A model generated the notes under the pieces. It did not search any database. It had not been told where the DNA came from and was given only the letters and a program-made list of their open reading frames with translations. A DNA stretch of 64,000 nt. Origin: a virus. Position numbers and translations under genes: made by a program. Shown piece by piece: positions 446 through 63,448 of this stretch (positions are counted from its first letter, which is position 1; every line of letters starts with the position of its first letter). The DNA lies in the IMG/VR virus record IMGVR_UViG_3300048833_000100, positions 1 to 64,000 of that record. One strand, given 5' to 3'.

Positions 446-1042
446 GTGCCATACCTACCTATCCAGGGATATGAGCAAATTTATGAGGTCAGCGACCTCG
501 GGCAAGTAAGATCCCTTGATCGACACACCACGGGTAAGGATGGGTGCATCTACCCATTTCGGGGAGTCACCCTTAAACCTGCTGTCCACAAAGACACTGG
601 CTACCTCATGGTCTCCCTCTGGAAAGGGGGAGTTGGGCGACACCATTATGTCCACCGACTGGTTGCAGAAGCCCACATTCCCAACCCAATGGGATTGCCT
701 GAAGTCAACCACAAGGATGGTATCCGAACCAACGCAACCGTTGGAAATTTGGAGTGGGTCACCGGACAGGAAAACAAGCAACATGCGGTAGACAGCGGAC
801 TGCGTGTTTATACCCACCGACTTACCAGAGACGAGTTTGTGGAGTGCATCCACGACATTATTGGTGGGGAGTCATATCAGTCACTGTCCGAACGTGTCCC
901 CTATAAGGTCCCGTTCCTTTCAACCAAGCTCCGGCAGTTGGCCAAAGAACTTGGCTTGGAGCAGGACCTGGATAACTCCCTTCGAGAACAGCGCATCACA
1001 AGAGCGAGGATCAACGGTGCTAAACATAGCAGAGCTGATTGA
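446..1042 (+). CDS. HNH homing endonuclease (NUMOD4 + HNH)
   Basis: A 198-residue homing endonuclease of the phage HNH type. The N-terminus has the NUMOD4-like pattern (YEQIYEVSDLGQVRSLDR, residues 10-26), followed by the HNH core: HRLVAEAHIPNP at 70-81, VNHKDG at 88-93 and NLEWVTGQEN at 101-110. It starts at GTG 446 behind AGGAGG at 435-440. Its last 26 bases overlap the start of the DNA polymerase C-terminal fragment in another frame. Base composition is less GC-rich than its neighbours, which fits recent insertion. Such enzymes cut intronless or cassette-free alleles of the gene they interrupt; here the target would be the polymerase gene. Confidence 0.88.
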   Translation: MPYLPIQGYEQIYEVSDLGQVRSLDRHTTGKDGCIYPFRGVTLKPAVHKDTGYLMVSLWKGGVGRHHYVHRLVAEAHIPNPMGLPEVNHKDGIRTNATVGNLEWVTGQENKQHAVDSGLRVYTHRLTRDEFVECIHDIIGGESYQSLSERVPYKVPFLSTKLRQLAKELGLEQDLDNSLREQRITRARINGAKHSRAD

Positions 1043-1820
1043 CTCGGTGCAGGAGGTGTCCCCCTCCGCCCATAACGTCAATCGCATCAACTCCATTGCT
1101 GACCACTATAAGAAGGAACGCCAAGAGAGCAAGACTCCCACCTTTGCTCTCACGCTCTGACCCCCTCTTCTTCGGAGGAGGGGGTAGAGCAAAGATACCT
1201 ATCAGGGGACCTGGAAGACCATCGTCGGCCAGGGTTTTGCCGTGAAGGTCGCCAAGCAGATCGAGAAGCGATACCACGAGCTCTATGTGGTCTCGGACCA
1301 ATGGGTCGCAGCCAAGCTCGATCAGGCCTCGATCGACGGCTATGTCACCGCAGCCTTCGGTCTTCGGGTCAGAACCCCTCTGCTTGCCCAGGTCATCCGG
1401 GGCAACTCCAAGACCCCCTATGAGGCCGAGGCAGAAGGCCGCACCGCAGGCAATGCTCTCGGGCAGTCCTGGTGCCTGTTGAACAGCCGGGCATGGGTCG
1501 AGTTCATGCAGAAGGTTCGGGCCAACCCGGACATGCGCCTCAAGGTCCGGCCCTGTGCCCAGATCCATGACGCAGGCTATGCCCTGATCCCCGATGACAT
1601 CGAGGTGCTCCAATACGTCAACGAGCACCTGGTCGAAGCCGTCTACTGGCAGGACCATCCTGACATCTCCCATCCCGATGTGAAACTCGGCGGGGAACTC
1701 TCCATCTTCTGGCCGAGCTGGGAGCATGAAGCTGTGATCCCGAACAGTGCCTCGGTGGATGCGATCTACGCAGTCATCGAGAACCATACGAAAAAACTCC
1801 GGGACAAGGGGGTCATCTGA
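1017..1820 (+). CDS. C-terminal fragment of family A DNA polymerase, interrupted by a 45-nt bypass-like segment
   Basis: Replicative family A DNA polymerase, C-terminal part only. A GTG at 1017 with GAGGA at 1006-1010 begins a frame that encodes 46 codons ending in SKTPTFALT, the first half of motif B (the O-helix). The frame then meets TGA at 1158 and TAG at 1185. The same frame resumes at 1197-1200 with TYQGTWKTIVGQGF and continues through the rest of the palm to motif C (QIHDAGYAL, Asp codon at 1569) and the stop at 1820. Joining across 45 nt gives the conserved FALTYQGTW. The N-terminal domains and motif A are not between positions 1 and 1017, so they must lie left of the window. Family assignment is firm; how the two halves are joined is inferred. 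Confidence 0.8.
1142..1199 (+). other. Bypass-like hairpin element inside the DNA polymerase gene
   Basis: Bases 1160-1170 pair with 1175-1185 to give 11 bp closed by a C(UUCG)G tetraloop at 1171-1174. The stem can be extended by 1154-1158 pairing with 1186-1190 past a bulged G1159, or alternatively by 1142-1150 (CTTTGCTCT) pairing with 1186-1194 (AGAGCAAAG). The segment carries in-frame TGA (1158-1160) and TAG (1185-1187). It is flanked by Thr codons ACG (1152-1154) and ACC (1197-1199). A Shine-Dalgarno-like GGAGGAGGGGG (1174-1184) precedes the second Thr codon. This is the architecture of the T4 gene 60 translational bypass; the function here is inferred. Confidence 0.65.
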
Positions 1821-11451: not shown

Positions 11452-14400
11452 CTAGTCGAAGATTGCAGCGACCGGGTGGTTGAACGGGGCATCGAAGCCC
11501 ATGGCCGGGCCGAACGAATAGGGCAGCCGTCCATCGAGAGTCGAGCCAAGGAAAGACCCATCCCAGGTGGTGGAAATCCCCGAGGCCGGGCCAACACCCC
11601 CCATCATGAACAGCGAGGTGAGCGGCCGGTCCCGCAGGGTCCGGGCCGCGATCTTCATGATCCTGAGCTTGTAGCTCCAGAACCACTGCAGACCCATGGT
11701 CTCCCGGAAATCCCGTCCCCGGCCCGGCAGACGGTTATACTGCACGAACTCTTCCCGGATCTGGTCGAGAGCATCCTCAGGCTTCATGCCCTTCTTCTTG
11801 GTCAGGTGATCATAGAGCACCGCCTTGGCCACGAAGTCTCCATACTGAACCATCCGGTTCAACCCCTGGAACAGGGCCGAGTCCTTGGTGATCAGCAGGT
11901 TCTTGGCCGTGCCTTGAGCCCAGTCCGGCATCCGGTTTGCGACCCGCTCCAGATACTCCCCCCACTTGCCTTCCCGGATGGCCACATCGGCTTCAGTCAG
12001 GCTTTCGGAGATCGTCGAGAACTCACCGCTCTCGATCAGGGGTGCCACAGAGAGCTTGGCATTGGCTCGATCCAGAACTGCGATCCGTGCCTGCAGGGCA
12101 TCCCGACGGGTCGGGTTATTGATCACAGCCGCCATCTCGATCTGCAACCGCTGGATCTCTTCCCGGTTCTTCACATAGGTCGAGATCTCCGAGAACTTGT
12201 CCCGCATCCCGGTCGCAATGGCGATCGGGCTCACACCCACCATCGAGAGGTGGTAGATGTTGGACAAGATGTTCTGGTAGCCCACCACGATCGAGCGGAC
12301 GATGATCGTGGTCTTGGCGAAGGATACCACGGACTCGACCGTATTCTCGAAGGTCTTGAGCTTGCGGAAGGCATGCACCCCAAGAAGACGTTCAGCCGTC
12401 TTCTGGATATTCTGCTGGGTTTTTTCATTCCAGCGGGAGATCCCGGTCCAGGCATCCGTCGTCGAGGCACGTCGGAAACCAATCGCATCCTCGACCTGAT
12501 CCCGTTTCACCCACAGCTCGTCTTTACCGAAGACCTCATGGGCGTGCTGCTTCATCTTCCAGCCCATGGTTCCCCAGGCATCCCGAACCACAGGATCCTT
12601 TTGGTTCGGGTCCGCGACGTTGATGAACTCGGAGACATCGCCCTTGGCTCGAGCTGCATCATAGGTCTCTTTCAGCACCTCGAGCAGCGCGACGTTGTTG
12701 GCATCCGCCACATTCTCTTCGACGATCCGACCCATCCACACCCCGAGCATCCGTCCGAGGTGATCATCCATCGGCATGGCTTCGGTATGGGCAGGATCCA
12801 TGGGGCGCTGGTGCCCGGCGATCTTGCCCTCCTTGTCGAAGATCGGCAGCAGGTAGTCTCCGGCAGGCAGGTTGTCGAGAGACCCTGGACGTGCCCGGCC
12901 GACCGAGAGCGCAATATCGGCGCTGTCATAGTCGGCAATCAGGCCAGCCGTCTGACCCGGCAGACGCTGGCCGGTATGGGCATCCACACCCATCCAAGTC
13001 TCGTGAACCGTCTGAGCCACCCCCTGACGGAAGGCAGTCTTGCCTGCCACCGTGGAGCGATAGTAGCCCCGCTTCGGCTGACGACCTTCGTTCTTGTCTC
13101 CGACATAATCCCCGACACGGGTGAACCCCCGCTTCAGGAGATTTGCTTGTTGGTCATCCTCGAAGACCATCAAGGCGGCACCTTCCTGCATCAGCCGTGG
13201 GATATACCCCTTCAGACCGTTGTTCTGCGCCACCTGGTTCAGAGCCCCGTCCCTGGTGATCCGCTTCATCTCCAGGGTTCGGGTGCCATTCAGGAAGCCG
13301 GTCAGGGTCTGCATCCCATCAGCCTCGTCCTTGGCCAGATCAGCCAGGGCCTTCTGCGTATCGGCATCGAGCTCGGCAAAGGCATAGAGGCTGGTCAGCT
13401 GGTCAATGGCAGTCACCAGATCTTCCGAGACGGGAGCCACACCCTTGGGTTTGTTCTCCCCGAACAGATGCGCGATGGCATGGGCGTTGGGCAGCAGGTT
13501 CTGCGAGGTCACCTTGCCAGACACCATATAGACGGCCAGTGCCTTGGCCTTGGCGATCTGCCGGGCCGATACAGCACCCCCCAGACCCATGACGGCTTCT
13601 TCGGCATCCGCGATCTTCTGATCCAAAGAACCCAGGTTCCGAAGCAGATCCAACGTCTCGGCATGACCAAGTGCCAGGAGATCCGTGCGAGCCAGTCCCT
13701 TGTGCAGCTGGCTCCACTCCGCACTCGTCAGCGGCCGGGAAAACTTCTTGGCGAGGTTCACCGGAACCCCCTCCCGGAAGTCTTGGCGCAGGGCGTCAAT
13801 CTTCGACTTGGCCTTGTTGATCAGACGCAGCAGCCCGATGTTGTCCTTGGTCTGTCCACGGAGATCCGACAGGATCGACCGCAGCTCGTGTTTCCCTTCG
13901 ATCCGGTTCAGGAAATAGGTGGCATTGTCCATGTTTTCCTCGGTGCGATCCGGGGATCCCAGAGAGGTCACCAGAGAGGTGACATAGGCCGCCTGCCCCA
14001 GGACGGAGCCTTTGCGCTGCTTGGCCGCATTGACCAGCTTGATCGTTGCCTTGGTCGACTTGTCCTCAACCTGTGATGCCAGCCAGCTGTTGGCCTGTTC
14101 GATCTTCTCGTTCATGGTCTCCAGCCCGGCCATCAGCCGGCGCTTGCCCTGCACCGTGGTCAGAGTCAGGGCGAGCTTCTCCATCTCCTGCCGCAGGTTG
14201 GGCTCCATCTTGCGCGGGTGGATCGACAGACGGGTGATCAGGTTCACCAGAGTGGAACCAATCGACCGGAGGAAATCATCCACCGAGTCCCACTTCAGAT
14301 CGGCGATCTTGGGAGCCTCGATCTTCTCCAGCACTTCCCGGAACCCGTCATTGGTCAGGGCCAGGGCTGTGAACACCGCCAGCTGGTCATTCCGGTTCGG

Positions 14401-63289: not shown

Positions 63290-63380
63290 GAGGGTGTGGC
63301 GGAATTGGTAGACGCGGCGCTTATAGGGGCTCCAGAACCCGAACGTGCCGGAATTGTGGGTTCGACTCCCACCACCCTCA
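63290..63380 (+). tRNA. tRNA-Leu-like gene with aberrant anticodon arm
   Basis: The acceptor stem GAGGGTG (63290-63296) pairs perfectly with CACCCTC (63373-63379). The T arm is GTGGG-TTCGACT-CCCAC (63356-63372). The D arm GCG-GAATTGGTAGA-CGC (63299-63315) is typical of leucine tRNAs. No normal 5+7+5 anticodon arm can be drawn. The only good pairing there is GGCGC (63316-63320) with GTGCC (63345-63349), enclosing 24 bases. The anticodon therefore cannot be assigned. A discriminator A and CC follow. It may be a degenerate tRNA, a tRNA with an insertion, or a tRNA mimic. Confidence 0.65.
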
Positions 63381-63448
63381 CCTACCACGCAGTTCCCGGT
63401 CTGCGTCATCAAAACCGGGACCCCATTCCCTGAACCATGGAGCTCCCC

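Follow-up and report, generated by a model that had tools for sequence, protein, structure and literature searches.

The polymerase locus near the start of IMG/VR virus record IMGVR_UViG_3300048833_000100 raises the question of how a replicative enzyme is produced from a gene whose motif B is broken by 45 nucleotides (nt) containing two in-frame stop codons. We analysed positions 1 to 64,000 of this record (the window), and an earlier note on the same DNA had proposed that ribosomes skip the insert in the manner of phage T4 gene 60. Long-range bypass in bacteria and phages rests essentially on gene 60, the only phage gene for which it is firmly established; other phage cases (Hau3, Corndog) have been suggested only (PMC5009743, PMC4351075). 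The window is likely to carry a mobile cassette composed of a free-standing HNH homing endonuclease gene and a bypass element within motif B of an N4-like DNA polymerase. The gene 60-like reading withstood every computational test run and the recovery of relatives strengthened it, a ribosomal hop being the step predicted from these sequences.

Re-reading of the sequence reproduced exactly the GTG 1017 frame, its 46 codons, the stops, the 45-nt gap and the YQGTW described earlier. The first frame ends TTT GCT CTC ACG (FALT, 1143-1154) at codon 46 and continues with CTC into TGA (1158-1160) and TAG (1185-1187); beyond the insert, ACC (1197-1199) is followed by TAT CAG GGG ACC TGG, so that YQGTW is encoded from position 1200. 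Motif B is re-formed when FALT is joined to YQGTW, and the relatives checked have an uninterrupted FALTYQG or close variant. The gap lies between two Thr codons, as had been observed, and contains the long hairpin with a C(UUCG)G cap, for which we calculated a folding energy of -27.9 kcal/mol (z = -5.8 for the gap). Across almost the entire record, equally strong folding occurs in just 11 of 49,282 same-length windows, which represent about five distinct places. A Shine-Dalgarno-like stretch had also been claimed ahead of the landing codon; a GAG is present there but is weak evidence for such a signal, since the composition of the 3' arm of the hairpin can account for it too. The exact hairpin was not found elsewhere in viral contigs. 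None of the approximately 40 viral relatives that reach the site has the insert, which is also absent from nearly all of 468 matching phage records (456 of them covering at least 80% of the junction-spanning query).

To identify comparable inserts, viral contigs were scanned for a pattern with FALT on one side, YQGT on the other and 21-51 free bases between them, in which only the take-off codon was fixed as ACN and the landing codon was left free. Translation of the flanks left polymerase genes from four uncultured phages as real matches (viral loci L055, L056, L065/L069 and L067); the remaining matches arose by chance, as did L190 and L191, obtained with wider landing patterns. All four long inserts occupy exactly the codon boundary used in the window. 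The gap is 45 nt in the window (ACG to ACC), 48 nt in L055/L074 (ACC to ACT), 40 nt in L056/L078 (ACT to ACA), 47 nt in L065/L069 (ACT to ACT) and 48 nt in L067 (ACC to ACC). Thr codons thus stand at both gap edges in five of five long-gap members, and a landing codon of the form ACN in the four further members has a probability of about 1.5e-5 by chance if these are independent. L065 and L069 are two assemblies with 0 differences in the 1,500 bases upstream and 2 in the 6,210 bases downstream.

These relatives also revise several features that had been read as characteristic of the element. Synonymous edge codons and a gap divisible by three were listed as departures from T4; both hold in the window, but the edge codons are identical in L069 and L067, and two gap lengths, 40 and 47 nt, are indivisible by three. 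The stop at the second codon past take-off recurs in L069 and L074 but is far off in L067 and L056. The 46-codon length of the first frame is not a fixed feature, as the family has 46 or 47 codons and a split relative lacking the insert also has 46. Shorter inserts were found as well: L072 and L073 have TAGCT following the Thr codon, and the 5-nt insert of L076, TAACA (ACG UA ACA UAU), again places Thr ahead of TAT. Only in these 5-nt members does a stop immediately follow Thr. In L077 (5009-5290) the polymerase has a single extra C after UUU, beside the same HNH family, and UUU C is a plausible +1 frameshift site. Comparison of related polymerases with and without the insert and the HNH gene therefore turned what had been a single candidate into a recurrent, apparently mobile family, for which we found no published report in the open-access literature.

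The gap hairpin is maintained while its sequence changes. The stems differ among members (CCCCCUCUUC/GAGGAGGGGG, GCCCCCUCUCA/UGAGAGGGGGC, CCCCCUCAU/GUGAGGGGG, CCCCCCCUAG/CUAGGGGGGG, and UGGUCGCCCACUGC/GUAGUGGGCGACUA in L067), and alignment of the five shows both sides changed in 4 of 9 pairs with none broken; the loops differ too. Covariation scored 0.556; shuffles gave 0.136 and slid controls no more than 0.12. Across members, z-scores for the gap ranged from -3.9 to -8.0. All aligned cells are paired (100%), a figure inflated by the selection of stems through folding. Upstream of the gap, a 5' stem-loop (-11.6 kcal/mol, z -4.0 in the window) adjoins the take-off codon in eight of eight polymerases with 5-48 nt inserts, falling one or two bases short in L074 and L076. 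Its energy in the last 32-33 nt is -6.3 to -15.3 kcal/mol in these eight, in which 7-9 of the 9 register positions are paired compared with 4-7 in 35 distinct intact relatives. The stem-loop is stronger in the insert-bearing set than in intact relatives (p ~7e-6, for sequences that are not phylogenetically independent). Its 5' arm is displaced in L078 and its outer pairs are swapped in L067. Covariation here is weak, being equalled by 28 of 500 shuffles, and the case for the 5' stem-loop consequently rests on its recurrence, its energy and the contrast with intact polymerases.

The endonuclease gene also links these loci. An HNH gene had been noted just upstream of the insert, and its domains are confirmed by Pfam (NUMOD4 1.2e-10, HNH_3 5.6e-9); its 3' end overlaps the start of the polymerase C-terminal half (C-half) by 26 nt and supplies the start region of that half. 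A search with a profile of this family added L072, L073, L075, L076 and L077 to the loci known before. The same family lies upstream in eight of nine insert-bearing loci (the window, L069, L072, L073, L074, L076, L077 and L078) and in none of the intact or split-without-insert relatives, five of which have a different HNH gene (~32% identity) at another site. The exception, L067, has the insert without the HNH gene; in the usual place of that gene, between the polymerase halves, is one that we take from its translation to be ribonucleotide-reductase-like (11766-13760, minus strand). At L075 (807-1877) an HNH frame is fused to the polymerase C-terminal part beyond motif B, and motif B is skipped. 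Bacterial genome contigs yielded only more distant HNH genes with this profile, the top identity being 58% over 71 residues.

In a FastTree phylogeny of query-anchored polymerase sequences, the insert-bearing members fall in several places: the window with L067 and L069, L078 with L077, L074 among the intact L012 and L020, L072 next to the intact L010, and L073 and L076 near Acinetobacter phage nACB1. HNH identity is 61-63% between members whose polymerases are just 44-46% identical (61% and 46% for the window and L073), and in the close pair of the window and L069 the values are 62% for HNH and 64% for polymerase. This scatter indicates that the cassette moves, and tree incongruence suggests that the HNH gene is linked to the bypass element and travels along with it.

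Among 50,697 phage records, the window HNH protein is matched far better by the HNH protein of an nACB1 intron (49.8% identity over 198 of 198 amino acids) than by any other. The nACB1 gene is flanked by group I intron matches, significant by E-value and under the Rfam gathering score, that interrupt motif B within a few bases of the insert site; the exon boundary predicted from sequence is FAL^TYMG. The intron form and the bypass form have related endonucleases, and only a few bases separate their sites. With moderate confidence, we propose a widespread non-T4 cassette family in which the endonuclease left its group I intron, split a replicative polymerase and persists because its target gained inserts of 1, 5 or 40-48 nt; each insert would be rescued by recoding, through a +1 shift, a 5-nt hop and a long bypass, respectively. 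A separate nACB1 feature annotated as DNA polymerase (L047:5658-5981, minus strand) does not resemble one and is a probable misannotation.

The source record (73,895 bp; G000) represents a phage of N4-like (Schitoviridae) type, and the top matches of its family A polymerase are Schitoviridae DNA polymerases at 65-69% identity. The gene is split into N-terminal and C-terminal halves located near opposite ends of the record (Table 1). The N-half closes with SEQMPDI plus a tail of some 50 residues, and approximately 1.9 kb containing other genes would separate the halves if the record ends adjoin. We treat the ends as adjacent because the gene order then agrees with split relatives; no terminal repeat was found in G000, and sequence could be missing between the ends. 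The split recurs in six viral loci (L014, L015, L016, L022, L023 and L040), which have related tails and a C-half start of their own, yet FALTYQG or FALTYDG is uninterrupted in them. Cultured phages with the same split were not found, matches ending where the cassette-specific tail and lead start. Relatives open the C-half with ATG GTG; at 1014-1019 of the window the first of these codons is ACG, and GTG 1017 (or the ACG) must then act as the start.

Table 1. Positions of the endonuclease gene, the polymerase segments and the putative bypass signals (window coordinates unless G000 is given)
Feature	Position	Strand	Details
HNH homing endonuclease gene	446-1042	+	NUMOD4 and HNH_3 domains
Open reading frame 1 (ORF1) of polymerase C-half	1017-1160	+	46 codons to take-off ACG, then CTC TGA; lead peptide aligned with split relatives
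5' stem-loop	1125-1151	+	Arms 1125-1133 / 1143-1151; abuts take-off codon
Putative take-off codon, ACG (Thr)	1152-1154	+	
Gap hairpin	1154-1190	+	Main stem 1161-1170 / 1175-1184; UUCG loop 1171-1174; lower stem 1154-1158 / 1186-1190
Coding gap	1155-1199	+	45 nt; T4-style count, landing codon included
GAG, Shine-Dalgarno-like	1187-1189	+	7 nt ahead of landing codon
Putative landing codon, ACC (Thr)	1197-1199	+	ACN here in 5/5 long-gap members
ORF2, remaining polymerase	1200-1820	+	Motif B Tyr; motif C HD; PHROG 2573 DNA polymerase 3.8e-33
Polymerase N-half	G000 70940-72985		681 aa; near opposite end of record from C-half

These features suggest a mechanism in which the HNH gene would have split the polymerase and, by its overlap, provided the start region of the C-half. 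The insert slightly downstream would break the presumed endonuclease target in motif B, and the genome could in this way be protected from its own enzyme. Ribosomes would translate ORF1 to the ACG codon and stall on it, between the upstream 5' stem-loop and the downstream gap hairpin; the ribosome would then release ACG and slide 45 nt, the peptidyl-tRNA-Thr would re-pair at ACC, and translation would resume at TAT to give FALT-YQGTW, the product presumably assembling with the N-half. A joined product appears to be needed because the motif B Tyr follows directly on the gap with no common in-frame start ahead of it (the earliest being GTG 1242), because a search of G000 identified no second DNA polymerase through which the phage might remain viable, and because ORF2 is under purifying selection (proportion of nonsynonymous differences, pN, 0.25-0.42 against a saturated synonymous proportion, pS, among members). 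Bypass would account for the codon match, the hairpin, the 5' stem-loop and the gap lengths of 40-48 nt, which lie inside the range of processive sliding (to 56 nt, PMC11194080).

Several observations weigh against this interpretation. ORF1 lacks the KKYK nascent-peptide signal on which T4 depends, and its cassette-specific lead may instead supply the take-off trigger. In most long-gap members the stop is not right after take-off, and in the 5-nt inserts of L072 and L073 the codon preceding TAT is GCT rather than ACN. The long-gap members are all metagenomic assemblies, and the window record has no replicate. A hop from ACG to ACC also needs a wobble-tolerant Thr tRNA. A search for a phage tRNA-Thr found none, but it turned up one odd Leu-like tRNA gene (63290-63382); the four-base anticodon (atag) that ARAGORN assigns to it suggests an anticodon loop of eight bases.

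Other routes to an intact polymerase were weighed against the same evidence. Removal of the insert from the RNA before translation, as a minimal intron excised by a hairpin-recognising nuclease and religated, would yield an identical joined product; nucleases of this kind act on hairpins such as the one at the junction, and nACB1 has a group I intron at the site. We nevertheless consider it improbable, as 40-48 nt is far below the size of self-splicing introns and a cmscan of the window polymerase region against Rfam gave neither a group I intron nor any other RNA. It would also leave unexplained why Thr codons are retained at the two edges while the remaining gap diverges, and why polymerases next to the same HNH family have inserts of 5 nt or 1 nt at, or close to, this position. 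Readthrough of the stops, with addition of 15 residues, is compatible with the gaps divisible by three in the window (45 nt), L074 and L067 (48 nt). Motif B corresponds to the O helix in family A polymerases, and the extra residues would land inside it after two stops had been passed; moreover, insert lengths of 40 and 47 nt shift the frame, so that readthrough cannot be a general solution and is extremely unlikely here.

A polymerase that is dead or recently broken, or an insert created by assembly error, deserves mention for a metagenomic record, since assembly can be upset by hairpins. This too is very unlikely, because one codon boundary holds five different inserts, of which one occurs unchanged in two assemblies (L065/L069); the downstream frame is intact and under selection, and no substitute polymerase was found in the record. 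The enzyme is already split once, which lends some appeal to the idea that a 47-residue peptide and a C-terminal protein initiated past the gap are separate products; the break falls in motif B and the first in-frame start lies beyond its Tyr, which leaves this arrangement with very little probability. Translational bypass thus remains our preferred explanation, and the best reading is that the window cassette would belong to a second, non-homologous family combining an HNH gene with such an element. If this is true, several natural and divergent elements operate in an essential enzyme with variable codons, hairpins and gap lengths, so that the requirements of bypass could be read by comparison rather than from mutants. 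With intron, short-insert and long-hairpin forms all at nearly one site, the intron-origin and endonuclease-protection idea developed for T4 becomes testable.

Several unrelated interruptions also occur in N4-like DNA polymerase genes (L013, L025, L028-L031, L041 and L067). These include a different HNH split near GFDGHSL, breaks at about residues 490-501 and 558, and one in L067 near motif A.

Several known systems share features with the cassette. Phage nACB1 (OQ032511) has its closest HNH relative among phage records and an interruption of motif B within a few bases; there, however, the polymerase has no other split, and what interrupts it is an intron (about 850 nt) rather than a bypass element. 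Split phage enzymes arising from homing endonucleases exist, for example the T4-like ribonucleotide reductases, in which a free-standing endonuclease has similarly divided an essential enzyme into halves that cooperate; we know of no bypass element in these. The byp elements of Magnusiomyces capitatus (81 instances, PMC5009743) are mitochondrial, and an endonuclease partner is not mentioned in that paper; like the inserts described here they are short sequences skipped by ribosomes, with take-off and landing codons sometimes imperfectly matched (PMC5009743).

There is extensive likeness to T4, in which gene 39, mobA, 60.1 and gene 60 with its 50-nt bypass are arranged in order (PMC3014915, PMC5009743, PMC11194080). 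Our yardstick was the T4 record NC_000866, with a 46-codon first frame and a 50-nt gap. Gene 60 requires two stem-loops, one 5' and one at take-off (PMC11194080), and a group I intron has been proposed as the origin of its element (PMC5009743). In both systems an HNH gene lies between the halves of a split gene, and both have 46 codons ahead of a gap of about 50 nt, a UUCG-capped hairpin beginning at take-off, a 5' stem-loop and edge codons for one tRNA, together with a proposed group I intron link and endonuclease protection. The present system differs in using a DNA polymerase gene, Thr codons that may be synonymous, no KKYK signal, a variable hairpin sequence, several gap lengths and an apparently intact HNH gene, and in its recurrence in many phages. 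As the host genes are unrelated, membership in the T4 mobA/byp family by descent is not claimed; by analogy, the window element looks built to work like its T4 counterpart.
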